DNA of 30,417 nt from a virus. Location: IMG/VR virus record IMGVR_UViG_3300020172_002861, positions 1 to 30,417 of that record, one strand, 5' to 3'. Shown piece after piece: positions 4,793 to 27,022 of the stretch; position 1 is the first letter of the stretch, and each line of letters begins with the position of its first letter. The position numbers and the translations under genes are program-made. The notes beneath the pieces were generated by a model. The model worked only from the letters and a program-made list of their open reading frames with translations. It did no database searches and was not told the origin of the DNA.

Positions 4793-5935
4793 ATGAAAAA
4801 AAATATAGATTATGGATATGATATACAAAAACTTTACCTAGAAATGATGATGTCGGATGCATCTACATTCGTAAGATGCCAGTCAATATTCGACCATACA
4901 CTCTTCGATAGAAAATTACAAGTAGCAGCACAATTTCTCAACACCCATGTTGAAGAATACGGAGTTATGCCAACCTACGATATAATTAACGCCGCTACCG
5001 GGGTGTCATTCAAATATCCAGAAAACCTACAAGAAGCAAACTACGATTGGCTACTCGAAGAATTCGAGACCTTCACTAGACATAAAGGACTAGAACGCGC
5101 AATCCTAGAATCAGCCGACGATCTAGAAAAAGGCGAATACGGCACAGTAGAAGATAGAGTTAAAAAAGCCGTCCAAATAGGTCTACAAAAAGACCTAGGA
5201 ACCGATTACTTTGAAAGTCCTAGAAATAGACTTATGAAAATCAAAGATAAAAATGGACAAATATCTACCGGATGGAAAGCAGTAGATGATAAACTTTTCG
5301 GCGGTATGAATCGAGGTGAACTTAATATATTCGCTGGTGGCTCAGGCGCAGGTAAATCTCTATTCCTAGCTAACCTGGGTGTTAACTGGGCTATGCAAGG
5401 ACTTAATGTAATCTACCTTACATTCGAACTTTCTGAAGAACTGGTGTCAATGAGGATCGACTCAATGATGACCGGAGTAGCTACCAAAGATGTATTCAAA
5501 CAATTAGACGAAGTAGAAATGAAAGTTAAAATACTTCAGAAAAAAGCAGGTAGCCTTCAAGTAAAATACATGCCATCAGGTAAAACCGCTAACGATATCA
5601 GAGCATACCTGAAAGAATACGAAATTAAAATCGGACAAAAAGTAGATGTACTACTAGTAGATTACCTAGACCTATTAATGCCTATATCTAAAAAAATTAG
5701 CCCAGCTGATCTCTTTATTAAAGATAAATTCGTATCAGAAGAACTTAGAAACCTGGCTATGGAAAAAAATTGTATATTCGTTACTGCTAGTCAGCTTAAT
5801 AGATGTCTTTCTTTATCTACTAACATAGAAGTTAACGGAAAAATAACTACTATTGATAAAATACAGGTTGGCGATTTTATAACATCTAATACCGAATCGG
5901 TGCAAGTTCTAGAAGTATTGCCTATTGTAAAATAA
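4793..5935 (+). CDS. 41: Replicative helicase N-terminal part fused to start of split intein
   Basis: Residues 1-337 are the N-terminal and most of the RecA-like part of a gp41/DnaB-type helicase: Walker A GGSGAGKS (182-189), Walker B LLVDYLDLL around D290, and TASQLNR at the splice junction. Cys338 (codon 5804-5806) begins an intein: CLSLSTNIEV is block A and KIQVGDF follows, as in the gp41-1 split intein, which sits at the same site. The frame ends at TAA 5933-5935 after only 43 intein residues, in the middle of the usual N-intein. In-frame homology resumes directly after the stop. Helicase function would need trans-splicing to the product at 7234-7743. Confidence 0.85.
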   Translation: MKKNIDYGYDIQKLYLEMMMSDASTFVRCQSIFDHTLFDRKLQVAAQFLNTHVEEYGVMPTYDIINAATGVSFKYPENLQEANYDWLLEEFETFTRHKGLERAILESADDLEKGEYGTVEDRVKKAVQIGLQKDLGTDYFESPRNRLMKIKDKNGQISTGWKAVDDKLFGGMNRGELNIFAGGSGAGKSLFLANLGVNWAMQGLNVIYLTFELSEELVSMRIDSMMTGVATKDVFKQLDEVEMKVKILQKKAGSLQVKYMPSGKTANDIRAYLKEYEIKIGQKVDVLLVDYLDLLMPISKKISPADLFIKDKFVSEELRNLAMEKNCIFVTASQLNRCLSLSTNIEVNGKITTIDKIQVGDFITSNTESVQVLEVLPIVK

Positions 5936-6070
5936 CCGGTGTTTGAAATTACCACCAAATCTGGAAAAAAAATAAAATGCAGTGCTAAACATAAATTTCC
6001 AACCAGTGCTGGATTGCAATCGCTTGAATCTGGATTAAAGATAGGTTCTAAATTAATTATTAAAAAATAA
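5936..6070 (+). other. Detached second part of the N-intein (block B), in frame after the stop
   Basis: These 44 codons continue the N-intein in the same frame across the TAA: FEITTKSGKKIKCSAKHKF is intein block B, followed by GLKIGSKLIIKK and TAA at 6068-6070. The end matches the end of the gp41-1 N-intein (about 88 residues; here 43 + stop + 44). There is no ATG; a GTG at 5939 lies 3 bases after the stop and could allow reinitiation. Alternatives are stop readthrough, a recent C-to-T or A-to-T nonsense mutation, or a sequencing error. No frameshift is needed. Confidence 0.7.
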
Positions 6071-6090
6071 TGTATATTTTGAGTTGCAGT

Positions 6091-6098
6091 GATAAATA
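6091..6098 (+). promoter_or_regulatory. Late promoter for the Vsr-like homing endonuclease
   Basis: GATAAATA 20 bp before the endonuclease ATG, within the gap between the two intein halves. The ribosome-binding site AAGGAAAA follows. The endonuclease would be expressed late, independently of the helicase. Confidence 0.5.
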
Positions 6099-6118
6099 AT
6101 AGTAATCAAGGAAAATAG

Positions 6119-7261
6119 ATGAATACTATATATAATACCACTAAAGCATTAAAAAAATTAAATTTAACACATCAACAAATTGATATGATTAACTCAATAG
6201 AATTTGAAGAATCAAAACGTCAATGGTTGATTACTAAAATTCAACAATATATAAAGCATGAGTACCCATTAAACATATTGGTGGAAAATTATGATAAAAT
6301 ATTATTATTGGGTAAAGATTCATCCAGTATAAAGTCATATATAATTAGATTTGGTGAATTACTGGGTATAGAATTATTTAATAAAAAAACTAAAGCAACG
6401 ACAGTTAATAAAGAACGATTGATACACACATTTGGTGAAGAACGTGCAAAACAAATTGGATATAAAAAAAGTGCTTGCATTGGTGCATATATTGAAAGAT
6501 ATGGCATAGAAATTGGAACACAAAAATGGAATGAATATCTAACAAATAGAAAAACAACATATCAAAATAAACGTGATAATGGCCATGTTTATCCAACGTA
6601 CAACTTGAACTATTATAAAAATTTGCACGGAGACGTGGAAGGAACTGAGCGATATTTAAAAAAAATAAATTCACAACGATATAAGGTCTCAAAGCAATAT
6701 TATATAGAACAATATGGGCCAATAGATGGTCCAATTAGATGTAGAGAAAATAAAGATCATTCTAGTATAAACTATTTTATAAAAAAACATGGTGAAATAG
6801 ATGGACTAGTAAAATATGGTGAACATAAACATAAAATGAAAACTGTTGCTAGTAAAAAAACATATAGTTATTATTCAGAAATGAGTTATATGTTTTTTAA
6901 TTCTATAAAAGAAACAATAACAGATTTGCATTATTATGGCCCTAATGAACTTAAATGGATAGTAAAAACAAACGAATGGATCGACCAAGCATTGGTATGT
7001 CCAGACTTATTTTATAATGGTAAAATTGTTGAATTTAATGGTGATGTTTTTCATGGAAATCCTACATTATTTTTAGATGAAGATTGTCCACATCCATTTA
7101 ACAAAACTATAACAGCTAAACAATTGCAAGAAAATGATAACAATAGATACAAATACTTTAATAACCTTGGATATGAAGTCCTGGTTATTTGGGAAACAGA
7201 TTATAACAACAATAAAGAAAAGGTAATAAATAAATGCATACAATTTTTAATGAGCAAATAA
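6119..7261 (+). CDS. Free-standing Vsr-like (EDxHD-type) homing endonuclease
   Basis: A 380-residue protein. The C-terminal domain has the Vsr-like nuclease pattern: PDLFYNG, KIVEFNGDVFHGNP with E305, D309 and H312, then NNRYKYF and LGYEVLVIWE. The N-terminal and central parts carry repeated IERYGIEIGTQKWNEY / YGPIDGP / HGEIDGLVKYGEHK modules typical of DNA-binding repeats in phage nucleases. This is the family found between the halves of fractured gp41 genes, where it is thought to cleave intein-less alleles and mobilise the insert. Its last 28 bases overlap the C-intein frame. High AT content and poor codon matching to the helicase suggest separate acquisition. Confidence 0.85.
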   Translation: MNTIYNTTKALKKLNLTHQQIDMINSIEFEESKRQWLITKIQQYIKHEYPLNILVENYDKILLLGKDSSSIKSYIIRFGELLGIELFNKKTKATTVNKERLIHTFGEERAKQIGYKKSACIGAYIERYGIEIGTQKWNEYLTNRKTTYQNKRDNGHVYPTYNLNYYKNLHGDVEGTERYLKKINSQRYKVSKQYYIEQYGPIDGPIRCRENKDHSSINYFIKKHGEIDGLVKYGEHKHKMKTVASKKTYSYYSEMSYMFFNSIKETITDLHYYGPNELKWIVKTNEWIDQALVCPDLFYNGKIVEFNGDVFHGNPTLFLDEDCPHPFNKTITAKQLQENDNNRYKYFNNLGYEVLVIWETDYNNNKEKVINKCIQFLMSK

Positions 7262-7743
7262 ACGAATGGGACGAAATAGTATCAATAGAATATATTGGAT
7301 TAGAAGATACAATAGATATTAATGTAAGTGGTGATAAACTATTTTATGCAAATGATATACTTACACATAATTGTGCAGTAGATGAGGTAGAATTCGACCA
7401 CTCCCATATCTCAGGCGGTCTTTCTAAAATTCAAACAGCCGATAACGTATTCGGGATCTTTACCTCCAGAGCAATGCGCGAACGCGGTAGATACCAAATA
7501 CAATTAATGAAAACCCGTAGCTCTTCAGGTGTAGGGCAAAAAATCGACCTGGAATTCAATATAGATTCACTTAGAATTTCAGACTGCGAACAAGAACCAG
7601 AATACGGAAACTCTTCTACACAATCAGCAGGGTCAGCTCTACTTCAAAGCATTAAACAACGCTCAACCATAGAAGAACCTAAACTGACAGCAAATGTTCA
7701 CGGCTCTAAACTTAGAAACCTGTTAAATAACCTACCAGAATAA
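7234..7743 (+). CDS. 41: C-intein fused to helicase C-terminal part
   Basis: Residues 1-46 are the C-intein: DTIDINVSGDKLFYANDIL then THN, with the terminal Asn at residue 46 and the +1 residue Cys47 (codon 7372-7374). gp41-1 uses Ser at +1. Residues 47-169 complete the helicase: AVDEVEFDHSHISGGLSKI, the FTSRAMRERGRYQIQLMKTRS arginine-finger region and a flexible tail. N- and C-exteins together give about 460 residues, close to T4 gp41 (475). The only in-frame start is the ATG inside the endonuclease gene, so translation may be coupled to it or start from an internal site. Confidence 0.85.
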   Translation: MHTIFNEQINEWDEIVSIEYIGLEDTIDINVSGDKLFYANDILTHNCAVDEVEFDHSHISGGLSKIQTADNVFGIFTSRAMRERGRYQIQLMKTRSSSGVGQKIDLEFNIDSLRISDCEQEPEYGNSSTQSAGSALLQSIKQRSTIEEPKLTANVHGSKLRNLLNNLPE

Positions 7744-9112: not shown

Positions 9113-9919
9113 GTGAATATTTATCAACCAACTCATAAGCATTGTTATAAATGCAATACCACTAAACCTAACACAGAATTCTATAAAGATAATAGCAGTA
9201 CCGATGGCATTAAAATTCGATGCAAACAGTGTGATGATATCTACCAACGTGAGTATTATACAAAACTTAAAGAGAAAAAACTATTAGAGAAAAAAATAAC
9301 ACTCAATAATAAAACATCAAAGATATGCAAGGTTTGCAACGTGGATAAACCATTTATATATTTTAATAAAACCAATGAAATTAAAGATGGTTATAAAACC
9401 ACCTGTATAGAGTGTAATAACAATTCTATACTAGAACGTAAACAAAAACGTAGAGAACAAACTATTGCTAATATCCCTAATAGAAAAGAAAAAATTAAAA
9501 ACTATATGCGGCTCTATTCCAGAGAACAATGTAAGAAAAACCCATTGTTCAAATTGAAACGCGATATACGTACAATTATTGGAAAGTGCTTACTGACGAA
9601 TGGGTATACTAAACGATCTAAAACATATACTATATTAGGGTGTACATTTGACGATTTCTCAACCTATATAGAAACACAATTTGTCGAAGGAATGTCATGG
9701 GATAATAGAAATGAATGGCATATAGACCATATAGTTCCAATATCATTCGGGATTACAGAAGAAGAAATAATACTAATAAACCATTATACCAATTTAAGAC
9801 CTTTATGGGCAATGGATAATATCATTAAAGGTGATAAACTAACAGATGAAGTTATAAACCATCCTATATATAAATCTATCGTTGATTCCAGATTATCCCA
9901 AAATTTCCAATTACAATAG
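9113..9919 (+). CDS. HNH homing endonuclease with two zinc knuckles
   Basis: A 268-residue protein. Two CxxC...CxxC ribbons (CYKCNTT...CKQC and CKVC...CIEC) precede a linker, a conserved ILGCTFDDFSTYIETQF segment and an HNH core: EWHIDHIVPIS, then NHYTNLRPLWAMDN and KGDK. The GTG start follows AAGGAG with 7-base spacing and matches the N-terminus of the paralogue at 19854 (MNIYQ versus MDIYT). It is inserted at the end of the plus-strand block. Free-standing HNH genes in T4-like phages nick intronless sites and promote marker exclusion; its own target is unknown. Confidence 0.9.
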   Translation: MNIYQPTHKHCYKCNTTKPNTEFYKDNSSTDGIKIRCKQCDDIYQREYYTKLKEKKLLEKKITLNNKTSKICKVCNVDKPFIYFNKTNEIKDGYKTTCIECNNNSILERKQKRREQTIANIPNRKEKIKNYMRLYSREQCKKNPLFKLKRDIRTIIGKCLLTNGYTKRSKTYTILGCTFDDFSTYIETQFVEGMSWDNRNEWHIDHIVPISFGITEEEIILINHYTNLRPLWAMDNIIKGDKLTDEVINHPIYKSIVDSRLSQNFQLQ

Positions 9920-13311: not shown

Positions 13312-13343
13312 GTTATATGCTCCGTGTTAATGAATAAAGGCAC

Positions 13344-13626: not shown

Positions 13627-13660
13627 GGTGGGTTTGCTCCGTGTTAGTGAATAAAGGCAC

Positions 13661-13781: not shown

Positions 13782-13796
13782 TTTCTTTTGCTCCGT

Positions 13797-14069: not shown

Positions 14070-14096
14070 TTTTTTGCTCCGTGTTAAGTTAGGCAC

Positions 14097-14318: not shown

Positions 14319-14349
14319 TGATTTGCTCCGTATCATTGAAAGAGCCATC

Positions 14350-14752: not shown

Positions 14753-14789
14753 TTGAATTGCTCCGTGATTATTCATTGAAAGAGCCATC

Positions 14790-14986: not shown

Positions 14987-15019
14987 CTTAATTGCTCCGT
15001 TATCATTGAAAGAGCCACC

Positions 15020-15285: not shown

Positions 15286-15316
15286 TTTATGCTCCGGTAT
15301 CATTGAAAGAGCCATC

Positions 15317-15769: not shown

Positions 15770-15803
15770 TGTTTTTTGCTCCGTACTTAGTGAATAAAGG
15801 CAC

Positions 15804-16158: not shown

Positions 16159-16195
16159 TTTTATTGCTCCGTGGTTATTGATTGAATGAGCCGCC

Positions 16196-16554: not shown

Positions 16555-16588
16555 TTTTATTGCTCCGTTATTGATTGAATGAGCCGCC

Positions 16589-16768: not shown

Positions 16769-16799
16769 CGTTTTTGCTCCGTTGTTAGTTGATGATTGA

Positions 16800-17246: not shown

Positions 17247-17277
17247 TTTATTTGCTCCGTTGTTAGTTGATGATTGA

Positions 17278-17521: not shown

Positions 17522-17550
17522 ACCTGCTCCGTTGTTAGTTGATATGGCAC

Positions 17551-17825: not shown

Positions 17826-17856
17826 ATTACTTGCTCCGTGATAGTTGATATGGCAC

Positions 17857-18280: not shown

Positions 18281-18306
18281 TGGTTGCTCCTTAATAATAT
18301 GATGGC

Positions 18307-19793: not shown

Positions 19794-19853
19794 AAGATAT
19801 AGGTCGCGGTATGGGGATACCCACCTATTCTAATGTCAACAGAGGACACCAGC

Positions 19854-20408
19854 ATGGATATTTATACCATTCAAACTAAGCATTGTACTAAATGTAATAC
19901 AACCAAATCTATAAGTGAATTTCCTAAAAATAAGACTAGAAAATCTGGATATGGTAGCCAATGTAAAGAGTGTAATAGATTGCGTGTTAAAACATATTAC
20001 AATAATAATAAAGAAAAGAAGCACGAATACACTCTACAATACTATCATAAAAATAAAGAAAAACTTAACGCGAAAATAAAAACTAAACGAGAAACTGATC
20101 CATTATTCAAGTTAAGAACATCAATTCGATCACACATAGGTTTAAAATTAAGAAAGAATAATTATACTAAAAAGTCCAGAACCTATGAGATATTGGGGTG
20201 TAGTTATGATGATTTCAAGCGTCATATAGAAAGCCAATTTTTAGAAGGTATGACTTGGGATAATCACGGTGAATGGCATCTTGACCACATCGTACCAGTT
20301 AGTTATGGATTAAATGAAGCTGAGGTTTTAGCTTTAAATCATTATACTAATTTTCAACCATTATGGGCTATTGATAATTGGTCTAATGGAAATAGGTATA
20401 TTGGTTAA
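19854..20408 (+). CDS. HNH homing endonuclease (paralogue of 9113)
   Basis: A 184-residue protein: zinc ribbon CTKCNTT...CKEC, basic linker, ILGCSYDDFKRHIESQFLEG, then the HNH core EWHLDHIVPVS and NHYTNFQPLWAIDN. It matches the gene at 9113 through most of its length but has one zinc ribbon instead of two. I set the start at ATG 19854, 7 bases after AGAGGA, because it aligns with the paralogue's start; an in-frame ATG at 19833 is less likely. It interrupts the minus-strand early region and lies on the opposite strand, as expected for a mobile insertion. Confidence 0.9.
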   Translation: MDIYTIQTKHCTKCNTTKSISEFPKNKTRKSGYGSQCKECNRLRVKTYYNNNKEKKHEYTLQYYHKNKEKLNAKIKTKRETDPLFKLRTSIRSHIGLKLRKNNYTKKSRTYEILGCSYDDFKRHIESQFLEGMTWDNHGEWHLDHIVPVSYGLNEAEVLALNHYTNFQPLWAIDNWSNGNRYIG

Positions 20409-21200: not shown

Positions 21201-21229
21201 TGTGTTTGCTCCTTAGATGGTATAGGGGT

Positions 21230-21671: not shown

Positions 21672-21700
21672 TTGGGTTGCTCCTTAGTTGGTATAGGGGT

Positions 21701-22120: not shown

Positions 22121-22152
22121 TTGATTTGCTCCGGTGTGTTTAAGATAGGGCT

Positions 22153-22618: not shown

Positions 22619-22651
22619 GATATTTGCTCCGTTAGTGTTTAAGATAGGGCT

Positions 22652-23135: not shown

Positions 23136-23166
23136 GTTGTTTGCTCCGAATGTTTAAGAAGTGCCT

Positions 23167-23872: not shown

Positions 23873-23902
23873 TTAATGCTCCGTGATGTTTAAGTTGTGT
23901 TC

Positions 23903-24341: not shown

Positions 24342-24529
24342 TGGTTAAATACATTATGAAAGATTTTACATCAATACACGATAACCATAACTTAGAAGTA
24401 ATAGAATTGGTAAATTCATATCATTATGGAAAAATCCATTGTAACGATTGCAATAAACACGTTGCATTTCTTAGTAGAACAGATTTATCAATGCTATTAA
24501 ACAAAAAGATTAAAAAGAAAAACCCTTGA
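24341..24529 (+). CDS. Small zinc-binding-like protein (62 aa)
   Basis: A 62-residue protein with HYGKIHCNDCNKHVAFLSRT, a CxxC pair in a context I recognise from small phage proteins (H-x-K-[IL]-x-C-x-x-C-x-K-x-x-x-[WF]-LS). ATG 24341 and ATG 24356 are both possible and neither has a Shine-Dalgarno. The C-terminal KKIKKKNP is encoded by the complement of the U-run of the minus-strand hairpin RNA. It is the only early-region plus-strand gene that is not an endonuclease. Confidence 0.5.
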   Translation: MVKYIMKDFTSIHDNHNLEVIELVNSYHYGKIHCNDCNKHVAFLSRTDLSMLLNKKIKKKNP

Positions 24530-24740
24530 TACCATATCGGAGCAGTGATATAATACCAAGGGTTGTATAGATGATAGCGGATCAACATTACATTTCGGAG
24601 CAATGATTTGTAATGTTAGGCTATCTTACCGCTTCACAGCGGGTTATTATCAGCTCAACCATAAGCCATACGGAGCATTGTAGGCTATGGGAGCAGGGCA
24701 TTTGACAATCATCATCGGAGCATTGACAATGATTGTCGAA
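24508..24740 (-). ncRNA. Hairpin-array RNA with repeated anti-Shine-Dalgarno loops
   Basis: Four hairpins (24701-24740, 24653-24694, 24573-24625, 24521-24564) have unrelated stems but the same 10-base loop, CANTGCTCCG on the minus strand. A fifth small hairpin (24629-24642) has a GTGA (GNRA) tetraloop on this strand. The minus strand is favoured because five plus-strand A:C mismatches in the stems become G:U pairs, and because the last hairpin is followed by TTTTTCTTTTT, an intrinsic terminator. TGCTCCG in the loops is complementary to CGGAGCA, the ribosome-binding site of about 20 nearby early genes. It starts 8 bases after the ATPase stop, so it may be a 3' UTR-derived RNA. Confidence 0.65.
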
Positions 24741-24748
24741 TTCAGTTA

Positions 24749-25543
24749 TTAAACTTCTCTGAGCGTCATTTTAGCGACTTTTTTCCACTTATCGCTATCA
24801 GGGAAGGCTTCGGCTAATTCGGCTGTCTTAGACACTGTTCTTAGTGATAACTTGATTTTATCTTTGTTATCCAGAACATAATCAACTACCGCCTGTTTCG
24901 CTTCATCGGTTAAATCTGTATCATCCAGCATACCATCAGAAACGACCTGCTTAATTCTTAAACTTCGCTCTCTAAGCGAGTGAACGGTGAGGTCAAAATA
25001 ATGCGATCTATCTTCAATCGCGTCAAAGTGCGCTCTTAATGCCTTGCTTCTTACATGACGAAAATCAAGATTAGTGATAAAGATTACACCGCCTTTGAAT
25101 TCAAAGGTATTAGGGATACCTTCATCACGCAATGAATGACTATCAAAGTTCCAGCTTAACATACGTTTCTTACTGGTATCTAATGCCGCTTTCAGTAAAT
25201 TCAAGCTTCGTTCTGATTGGAATACATCATCACAATCATCGAATACCACAACATTTTTTGGTTGTCGATATTCGTACATTTTTTTATACATACCAAGTTC
25301 ACCGATTGCACCCTTGACAATTTCATACTTTTTCAATGATTGGTCATTGGCGATTGTAGCGAACATATCATGGTAGCCTAGAACCCTTTCAACACCAAAG
25401 GTCTTGCCAACACCAGCCGCACCGGATACAATCATTGACCGGACTTTGCCACTTTTTACAGCTCTGGTCATATCTTCTAAAAACTCGAATCGTTCCCGTA
25501 AACGTTCCATGATTTCTTCGTCTGTTTCTATTACCTTAGTCAT
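24749..25543 (-). CDS. AAA+-like ATPase of T4-like marine phages
   Basis: A 264-residue protein. Walker A is GAAGVGKT (41-48), Walker B is VVVFDDCDD (around D102/D103), followed by LLKAALDTSKKRMLSWNFDS, GVIFITNLDFRHV (sensor-like) and HSLRERSLRIKQV. The family is common in T4-like marine phages; its partner and role are unknown, and a DNA-remodelling or loader-type function is only inferred. ATG 25543 is chosen because the promoter at 25578-25605 excludes the longer frame. The leader has a weak Shine-Dalgarno (AAGAGC). Confidence 0.8.
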   Translation of the reverse strand: MTKVIETDEEIMERLRERFEFLEDMTRAVKSGKVRSMIVSGAAGVGKTFGVERVLGYHDMFATIANDQSLKKYEIVKGAIGELGMYKKMYEYRQPKNVVVFDDCDDVFQSERSLNLLKAALDTSKKRMLSWNFDSHSLRDEGIPNTFEFKGGVIFITNLDFRHVRSKALRAHFDAIEDRSHYFDLTVHSLRERSLRIKQVVSDGMLDDTDLTDEAKQAVVDYVLDNKDKIKLSLRTVSKTAELAEAFPDSDKWKKVAKMTLREV

Positions 25544-25577
25544 TATAGCTCTTGTGTCAGTTGTTAAAAGAAATTGT

Positions 25578-25605
25578 ATTTTATCATAAAATGAACCAGT
25601 GTCAA
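25578..25605 (-). promoter_or_regulatory. Promoter for the ATPase gene
   Basis: TTGACA and TAAAAT, 16-bp spacer. A TATAATG string overlapping the ATG at 25543 is probably coincidental. Confidence 0.7.
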
Positions 25606-25747
25606 TCATTAAAATCAATTATTTTGATTGATTTTAATGTGCTATTTTTTTCGATACATTTCGGCACATTTTCCAGCAAGTTATTGAATTATACAGGCAC
25701 GTTTGACGATGTTTATGCAACATTGTTAAAATAGCCTTAAAATGTGT

Positions 25748-25772: not shown

Positions 25773-25824
25773 GATGGGTTTAATGTTAAAACGTGTTTAA
25801 AACGCTTTATTTTGTTAAAATATG

Positions 25825-25896
25825 CGCCCTTAGAAGGAATCGAACCTCCATTCTGGGAGTAGAAATCCCATGTCCTATCCATTAAACGATAAGGGC
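25825..25896 (-). tRNA. tRNA-Arg (UCU)
   Basis: A 72-nt cloverleaf. Acceptor GCCCTTA pairs with TAAGGGC. Anticodon stem TGGGA/TCCCA encloses TTTCTAC, anticodon TCT. The T-loop is TTCGATT. CCA is not encoded. UCU decodes AGA, a codon common in this AT-rich phage and rare in many hosts. It is co-transcribed behind a structured RNA from the promoter at 26050. Confidence 0.9.
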
Positions 25897-26178: not shown

Positions 26179-26940
26179 ATGAAAACAAAAATCAGTCAAG
26201 CACATTTAGAATCTAATCGCAAAAATGCTAAACTATATGGTAGTCATATCGGTGGCGCGGCTTATGCTAAGAAAATGGCAGATATAAAAATCATCAAGGT
26301 TGCTGAATATAACCAAAACCCAAAATTATGTAAGCATTGCCAAACACCTATACCATACGATAAAAAAGCTAATAGCTTTTGTAATAGCTCCTGTTCTGCA
26401 TCATTCAATATGATATATCGGGATAAGACAGTTATTGAAAAAATAAAAGACACTTGGAATATAAAAAATCAGCCATTGATTGAAAAGCGAAAAACAGGTA
26501 AATCTAAAAAATTTAAGTATCAAGTAGAACCAAACGCACCGTATTCTAAATTGTTCAATTGTACTTGTCAACATTGTGGGTTTAAAGCGTTATATCGAAT
26601 ACAACAAAAATACTGCAATGATTGTCAACATTTATACAGCCACGATGGTAGAGCTAAATTTTGGTTTACGTTTAATGTTTTTCATTATCCAGAATTATTT
26701 GATTTATCGTTGATTGCTACTTATGGATTTAGGGATAATAAAACCAATCCAAATGGTATTACTAGGGATCATAAAATTTCTGTGAATGATGCTATTAGAT
26801 ATGGCTACGATCCATATTATATCAAGCATCCAGTGAATTGTGAATTGATGTTTTTCAATGAAAACAATAAAAAGAAAACCAATTCATCTATTACCTATGA
26901 GGAATTAGTTAAATTAGTTGATGATTATGATATGAAATAA
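26179..26940 (+). CDS. HNH homing endonuclease (second type)
   Basis: A 253-residue protein. The N-terminus is basic, followed by a zinc ribbon CKHC...CNSSC and a second ribbon CQHCG...CNDC. The C-terminal HNH-like core is NGITRDHKISV, NDAIRYGYDPYYIKHPVNCE and FFNENNKKK. It is a different lineage from the HNH proteins at 9113 and 19854. It sits between two tRNA transcription units on the opposite strand, a common landing area for phage homing genes. The Shine-Dalgarno TGGAGGAT is strong. Confidence 0.85.
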   Translation: MKTKISQAHLESNRKNAKLYGSHIGGAAYAKKMADIKIIKVAEYNQNPKLCKHCQTPIPYDKKANSFCNSSCSASFNMIYRDKTVIEKIKDTWNIKNQPLIEKRKTGKSKKFKYQVEPNAPYSKLFNCTCQHCGFKALYRIQQKYCNDCQHLYSHDGRAKFWFTFNVFHYPELFDLSLIATYGFRDNKTNPNGITRDHKISVNDAIRYGYDPYYIKHPVNCELMFFNENNKKKTNSSITYEELVKLVDDYDMK

Positions 26941-26944
26941 ACAA

Positions 26945-27022
26945 TGGTGGGTCGGGTGGGGTACGATCCCACAATCTCGCAAGTTATGAGCTTGGTGTTG
27001 TAACCAATTCAACTACCGACCC
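26945..27022 (-). tRNA. tRNA-Met (CAU), CCA encoded
   Basis: A 78-nt cloverleaf including ACCA. Acceptor GGGTCGG pairs with CCGACCC; D-stem GTTG/CAAC; anticodon loop CTCATAA with anticodon CAT. Oddities: the top anticodon-stem pair is C:C, and the T-loop is ATCGTAC, where the usual T54-A58 pair is swapped to A54/T58. It could be elongator Met or a TilS-modified Ile2 tRNA; the sequence alone does not decide. It has its own promoter. Confidence 0.8.

Follow-up and report, generated by a model that had tools for sequence, protein, structure and literature searches.

The array and its neighbouring gene

On the minus strand of the 30,417-nucleotide stretch of viral DNA analysed here (hereafter, the window), four hairpins with unlike stems and a common loop, CANTGCTCCG, occupy positions 24740–24508, as identified from sequence and folding. 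They lie directly 3′ of the stop codon of a gene for an ATPase of 264 to 289 amino acids. The features of the locus are as follows.

24508–24740, minus strand: predicted antisense array RNA with four hairpins (loop CANTGCTCCG), a fifth CTGCTCCC copy, a GNRA hairpin and a terminator (from sequence, folding and a place kept in relatives)
24704–24737, minus strand: hairpin 1, 13-bp stem, loop AATGCTCC, core at 24717–24722 (folding)
24690–24695, minus strand: fifth core copy, TGCTCC then C (TGCTCCC), at the edge of hairpin 2 (motif search)
24653–24694, minus strand: hairpin 2, loop AATGCTCC, core at 24672–24677 (folding)
24629–24642, minus strand: spacer hairpin CCGCT-GTGA-AGCGG with a GUGA (GNRA) tetraloop (sequence, folding)
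24574–24626, minus strand: hairpin 3, loop ATTGCTCC, core at 24597–24602 (folding)
24508–24564, minus strand: hairpin 4 and U-tract, intrinsic terminator, loop ACTGCTCCG, core at 24539–24544 (terminator search)
24749–25618, minus strand: AAA ATPase, phrog_1250, homologue of T4 NrdC.10, likelier start ATG at 25543 (profile and homology search)
25578–25605, minus strand: probable sigma-70-type promoter of the ATPase and array, TTGACA-16-TAAAAT (consensus match)

The loops of the four hairpins read CAATGCTCCG, CAATGCTCCG, CATTGCTCCG and CACTGCTCCG on the minus strand and the consensus CANTGCTCCG is exact, which confirms the description of four hairpins with unrelated stems and one loop given by a first-pass annotation of the window. 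Absent from that annotation was the extra fifth copy of the loop core, CCTGCTCCC, at plus-strand coordinates 24690–24695. The predicted folding energy is −88.6 kcal/mol for the minus strand versus −79.7 kcal/mol for the plus strand, with z-scores against shuffled sequences of −7.3 and −5.0, respectively. Hairpin 4 consists of an 18-bp stem followed by TTTTTCTTTTT, and was independently called as a minus-strand intrinsic terminator. The first-pass annotation had taken a GNRA tetraloop and a terminal U-tract as signs of a minus-strand RNA; both are present, in the GUGA hairpin and in hairpin 4. Gene direction, the orientation of terminators (60 of 72 arrays in relatives) and the better folding agree in indicating that the minus strand is the RNA strand.

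A near-consensus minus-strand promoter lies approximately 60 bases 5′ of the likely ATPase start codon, whereas we found no strong minus-strand promoter in the window that lies directly 5′ of the array and is comparable to it. It therefore seems more likely that the array is transcribed with the ATPase gene, as its 3′ untranslated region (UTR), than that it is an RNA gene in its own right.

Elsewhere in the window, a DnaB-like helicase profile (4793–7743) is split over two open reading frames (ORFs), 4793–5935 and 7234–7743, with an unrelated ORF (6119–7261, phrog_22677) between the halves, perhaps reflecting an interrupted gene or an intein- or intron-like insertion. An endonuclease VII/HNH-like ORF lies on the plus strand at 9113–9919. 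Two other plus-strand ORFs, one HNH-like by eye (19833–20408) and one assigned to phrog_23051 (26179–26940), sit among minus-strand genes and are possibly homing elements. Genes for tRNA-Arg(TCT) (25824–25896) and tRNA-Met(CAT) (26945–27022) are both on the minus strand.

Shine–Dalgarno sites complementary to the loop

The motif CGGAGCA occurs 23 times in the window, compared with 0.95 ± 0.88 matches expected. Nineteen of these are on the minus strand, all a few bases 5′ of minus-strand start codons, and the other four are the array loops read on the opposite strand. AGGAGCA serves as the Shine–Dalgarno (SD) sequence of three further genes, bringing the total to approximately 22 target genes. 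The proposal that TGCTCCG is complementary to an SD shared by about 20 genes therefore holds, with 19 CGGAGCA and 3 AGGAGCA sites. The sites listed below, all on the minus strand, are motif matches before start codons.

23877–23883, minus strand: target SD CGGAGCA
23142–23148, minus strand: target SD CGGAGCA
22625–22631, minus strand: target SD CGGAGCA
22127–22133, minus strand: target SD CGGAGCA
21678–21684, minus strand: target SD AGGAGCA
21207–21213, minus strand: target SD AGGAGCA
18285–18291, minus strand: target SD AGGAGCA
17832–17838, minus strand: target SD CGGAGCA
17525–17531, minus strand: target SD CGGAGCA
17253–17259, minus strand: target SD CGGAGCA
16775–16781, minus strand: target SD CGGAGCA
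16561–16567, minus strand: target SD CGGAGCA
16165–16171, minus strand: target SD CGGAGCA
15777–15783, minus strand: target SD CGGAGCA
15290–15296, minus strand: target SD CGGAGCA
14993–14999, minus strand: target SD CGGAGCA
14759–14765, minus strand: target SD CGGAGCA
14324–14330, minus strand: target SD CGGAGCA
14075–14081, minus strand: target SD CGGAGCA
13789–13795, minus strand: target SD CGGAGCA (weak gene call)
13635–13641, minus strand: target SD CGGAGCA
13318–13324, minus strand: target SD CGGAGCA (GTG start)

The CGGAGCA sites span 13.3 to 23.9 kb of the window, and the motif is not used by the plus-strand genes of the window or by its minus-strand genes at 10.7–12.7 and 28–30 kb. 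Duplexes between the array loop and leaders carrying the motif have a mean predicted energy of −13.4 kcal/mol, compared with −6.7 kcal/mol for the other SD-like leaders of the window, whereas the anti-SD of 16S rRNA pairs with both kinds of leader alike (−6.6 kcal/mol).

Wherever the DNA 5′ of a window target gene was inspected, a separate TTGACA/TATAAT-like promoter was present for that gene, with approximately 20 bases of leader before the SD. By consensus match, nearly all targets have their own sigma-70-like promoter, and in relatives a −10 box was found 5′ of 92% of GGAGCGA leaders, as opposed to 17% of shuffled ones. Because these promoters are of the host type, we infer that the targets are early genes. 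In the group of relatives with the loop TCGCTCC, the SD of the ATPase gene itself is GGAGCGA in 39 of the 45 loci having a GGAG SD. The window ATPase has an SD without the target motif and the window targets lie downstream of the array, so autoregulation does not appear to be general.

Many target promoters between 13300 and 23900 also carry an inverted repeat, the 3′ arm of which holds or abuts the −10 box. The arms differ from gene to gene (for example, GGCACATTAT...ATAATGTGCC), and arms of at least 7 bases are found in 46% of TGCTCC-group leaders versus 10% in shuffles.

The array and its code in relatives

We gathered approximately 250 related loci by ATPase searches and located arrays by local minimum-free-energy folding; a perfect-stem finder missed most of them because the stems are bulged. 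An array lies 3′ of an NrdC.10-like ATPase gene, on the same strand, in more than 70 uncultured phages. Among 148 distinct loci, the commonest hairpin-loop 5-mers in the 350 bases 3′ of the ATPase gene were TCGCT, CGCTC, GCTCC, TTCGC and ATTCG (56–61 loci each), followed by AAAAA (24 loci). The main class of array has one to three hairpins, usually two, with the loop ATTCGCTCC (123 of 134 unique copies), and the last hairpin is usually a terminator. Of 72 arrays, 60 have a T-tract after the final loop and 3 have an A-tract ahead of the first loop. The 131 unique TTCGCTCC hairpins have 13.0 stem pairs, compared with 7.6 when the flanks are shuffled; identity between the flanks of hairpin copies is 28%, close to random, and yet the flanks still pair. 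The loop is the most conserved part of the array across relatives. Consistent with the earlier suggestion that a constant loop is under selection, relatives keep the loop on near-random stems and, with few exceptions, it changes only with the SD. A 15-mer from one class of hairpin and loop (code A below) is present in at least 120 IMG/VR stretches. Host assignment by contig matching yielded only metagenome bins of mixed phyla.

In another clade, a hairpin with CCGATTCGCTCCCGG lies approximately 0.5–1.2 kb farther downstream of the ATPase gene. A group that has GGAGCGA SDs and at first seemed to lack an array was ruled out as a breaker of the rule, as this hairpin lies 0.5–1.2 kb on, after other genes. 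The array is absent from the annotated relatives PA5oct, Vibrio phage nt-1 and Aeromonas phage B614; in Pseudomonas phage PA5oct (L025, 2986–3604), a putative lncRNA based on RNA-seq is annotated approximately 2 kb before the ATPase homologue. Directly 3′ of the ATPase gene in L223, L236, L241, L244, L249 and L255 is a strong hairpin, its 20–28-base loop made up of CTCTCTCC/CCTCC repeats, with a second, separate hairpin resembling a terminator after it; this is possibly a generic anti-SD mimic in other relatives of the ATPase group. A single hairpin with TAGCTCC in or beside its loop lies 3′ of the ATPase gene in L017, L018, L222, L248 and L276. Among the loci gathered, no SD partner was found for either loop class (GGAGCTA for TAGCTCC; GGAGAGAG for (CTCTCTCC)n). 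Three loci with GGAGCA SDs, in which no array was found, have a conserved sequence in common, TCGCTCCGAAGTCC...GGGGGTAGTGTCCC...GGCAAA, which lies upstream of the ATPase gene (L096, 7793; L104, 6101; L124, 4324) and may be another small RNA.

Loop and SD fall into three matching codes: TTCGCTCC with GGAGCGAA (code A), TTGCTCC with GGAGCAA (code B, that of the window) and TGCCCT with AGGGCA (code C). Phages with code-A loops use the SD AGGAGCGAA, a 9-mer present in 249 copies, and the code-B SD is CGGAGCAA. We counted SD densities by loop class over 190 non-redundant loci, a count that replaced a whole-locus loop table made noisy by hairpins in coding regions. Loci with the loop TCGCTCC (n = 68) carried 4.02 GGAGCGA, 0.41 GGAGCAA and 0.22 AGGGCA SDs per 10 kb; those with TTGCTCC (n = 5, the window and its kin) carried 0.49, 9.27 and 0; and those with TGCCCT (n = 8) carried 0, 0.63 and 5.47, respectively. 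The loop/SD pairing score was 363, compared with 143 ± 18 in permutations, which ignore kinship. The third code surfaced in a search that was not tuned to TGCCCT, in which, locus by locus, the reverse complement of a common SD word was sought in the loops after the ATPase gene. The position before the motif shifts too, from A before GGAGCG in code A to C before GGAGCA in code B, the loops of which continue with G. The exceptions are all on fragments: L303 (loop TGCCCT, SDs GGAGCA), L064 and L195 (loop TCGCTCC, mostly GGAGCA SDs) and L201 (loop TTCGCTCC, few GGAGCGA).

In the ATPase tree, the window group (support 100/99) lies inside the TTCGCTCC group (24 rows, 95/97; a subclade of 9 rows within it, holding five TTCGCTCC rows, has 96/87). 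By this nesting, loop and SD switched together along a single branch, code A giving way to code B. Kinship inflates the counts, and what supports joint change independently is a single clear co-switch (A to B), with code C as a further contrast, rather than dozens of events. Compensatory change of loop and target is seen in three natural codes, with a co-switch on the tree. The first-pass annotation had proposed that it would be contradicted by a loop that varies freely or by early genes without the motif; in the relatives, the opposite holds.

Pairing with 16S rRNA is limited to GGAG or AGGAG (−5.8 to −7.7 kcal/mol, versus −12.4 to −13.3 kcal/mol for the cognate loop) and therefore cannot explain the extended SD bases. 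Mismatched codes pair less well, with −8.9 kcal/mol for a code-A loop on a code-B SD and a milder loss in the reverse combination (−11.5 kcal/mol). Pairing between loop and SD is strongly supported by the sequences compared.

The targets in relatives lie near the array. In code A, of the GGAG-type SDs on the ATPase strand, GGAGCGA makes up 44% within the 12 kb leading to the ATPase stop codon and 17% within the 10 kb beyond; on the opposite strand, it makes up only 2 of approximately 106. In records of 356–400 kb, GGAGCGAA sites cluster around the ATPase gene and array, and the scattered others are near chance level. Few targets have names: a GP88-like protein, phrog_1987 proteins and small proteins of unknown function, as well as the ATPase itself in the 39 code-A loci mentioned above. 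The first-pass annotation had envisaged an RNA that might shut off or time a whole regulon. This reading is supported, but the regulon is a local cluster near the array, not demonstrably all early genes.

A predicted antisense RNA for a local early regulon

We consider it highly probable that the array is an antisense RNA of the 3′-UTR type that keeps ribosomes from the early genes of a local regulon, with its expression and repressive effect deduced from the DNA. Most likely, the RNA would be transcribed together with the ATPase gene as its 3′ UTR, end at its own terminator and perhaps be freed by processing. Its hairpins would display four identical anti-SD loops (one to three in relatives), each able to pair over 7–8 bases with the private SD of nearby short early genes that have their own sigma-70-type promoters. 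Because this pairing is predicted to be far stronger than that of 16S rRNA, the loop would outcompete the rRNA at the SD and block binding of the 30S subunit, and several loops per RNA would allow more mRNAs to be captured. Very probably, the RNA switches off the whole early-gene cluster that bears the matching SD. The ATPase gene and the targets have like promoters, so the RNA and its targets are probably made in the same phase, and the circuit would curb early proteins after a lag: their synthesis would fall as the array RNA accumulates, giving a delayed, self-limiting pulse.

Alternatively, pairing with the RNA could benefit the early leaders, for example, by stabilizing the mRNAs or keeping them translatable. 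Co-variation shows pairing and not its sign, and array and targets share a strand and a region. However, the paired bases include the SD itself, for which the RNA would be in competition with the ribosome, and the leaders, with a promoter only about 20 bases before the SD, are by their length too short to leave much room for a blocking structure that needs opening; we regard this as unlikely. It is very unlikely that the loops are a general anti-SD mimic directed against host mRNAs, with the match to phage SDs having another cause. The GGAG core pairs with any SD and the (CTCTCTCC)n loop class looks generic, but the conserved bases past the core (CGAA, CAA) serve the phage SDs and change with them, and the energy of the other window leaders (−6.7 kcal/mol) is that of weak pairing.

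The product could instead be a plus-strand RNA with hairpins showing CGGAGCA, a decoy for ribosomes or for an SD-binding protein like CsrA or RegA. Its loops would display GGA, and hairpin 4 contains a plus-strand promoter match (TTGATA-17-TATAAT). We regard this as extremely improbable: the promoter match is absent from a relative with 93% identity (L009), folding favours the minus strand, 60 of 72 arrays have their terminator oriented for minus-strand transcription, and in the relatives the array follows a gene on its own strand. The CsrA-type GGA sponge offered by the first-pass annotation fails for the same strand reason, as the transcribed loops read CUCC and not GGA. That the hairpins are ordinary terminators or 3′-end stability elements, with SD likeness due to chance or a mobile repeat, is scarcely credible: the last hairpin is a terminator, but constant loops on random stems and the way in which loop and SD vary in step across three codes speak against this explanation, which the counts of SDs per loop class in the main refute.

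The predicted antisense RNA was also compared with known systems. Membership of an Rfam 15 family, including c4 antisense RNA, RNAIII, CsrB/RsmZ and 6C, was rejected, as no covariance model matched the array of the window at gathering score or at E up to 1, or that of L012 at E up to 1. C-rich loops of bacterial small RNAs (sRNAs), such as mycobacterial B11/6C and staphylococcal RsaE and RNAIII, pair with the SDs of several mRNAs. Those RNAs are bacterial, have cellular targets and lack a private SD code, and none matched the array in Rfam. RNAIII had been put forward as the analogue, but the alpha-r14/cuckoo sRNAs, with their multiple anti-SD hairpins, are closer. These sRNAs of alpha-proteobacteria (for example, NfeR1) act in trans and have three hairpins with an identical, ultraconserved unpaired anti-SD motif on highly variable stems (PMC10746234). 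The phage array is built in the same way, its several hairpins having variable stems but the same anti-SD loop. By contrast, their motif is CCUCCUCCC and they are encoded in alpha-proteobacterial chromosomes, whereas the phage loops are TGCTCCG, ATTCGCTCC or TGCCCTC, and the arrays are in virus records, 3′ of an NrdC.10-like gene, varying by lineage together with a private SD.

In position, the closest likeness is to OppZ and CarZ of Vibrio cholerae, sRNAs from the 3′ end of a regulated transcript that base-pair with their own transcripts and inhibit translation in a feedback loop (PMC7398697). The array likewise lies 3′ of an mRNA and ends at the intrinsic terminator of that mRNA, but here one RNA would serve many monocistronic targets through a repeated loop. 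In task, it resembles c4 RNA of phages P1 and P7, the complementary loops of which block a phage ribosome-binding site (PMC12197685), although c4 has one target (ant) and a role in immunity. It also resembles RegA of phage T4, which shuts off translation of approximately 30 phage mRNAs at the initiation region (PMC3014915); RegA is a protein, and the array would do an analogous job with RNA. By the features compared, the array RNA does not appear to belong to any of these four systems (alpha-r14/cuckoo, OppZ/CarZ, c4 and RegA). In the literature searched, which took in few subscription papers, no description of the array RNA was found.

More broadly, these arrays probably represent a phage RNA family with a private translation code, in which a lineage-specific extended SD and a matching anti-SD array in a 3′ UTR change together. 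Shut-off of phage early genes is known mainly through proteins, such as anti-sigma factors, RegA and RegB, and an antisense RNA that reaches multiple targets through a common SD would be a compact alternative. If this is true, the array would be an RNA counterpart to the T4 protein RegA and, within the literature searched, the first phage antisense RNA for a whole regulon that can be recognized from sequence, present in many uncultured phages, including jumbo phages. The three natural loop/SD codes would serve as ready-made compensatory mutants and could provide synthetic biology with a natural, orthogonal part for SD/anti-SD control. As the code can be read from DNA alone, the regulons of uncultured phages could be called from their sequences.
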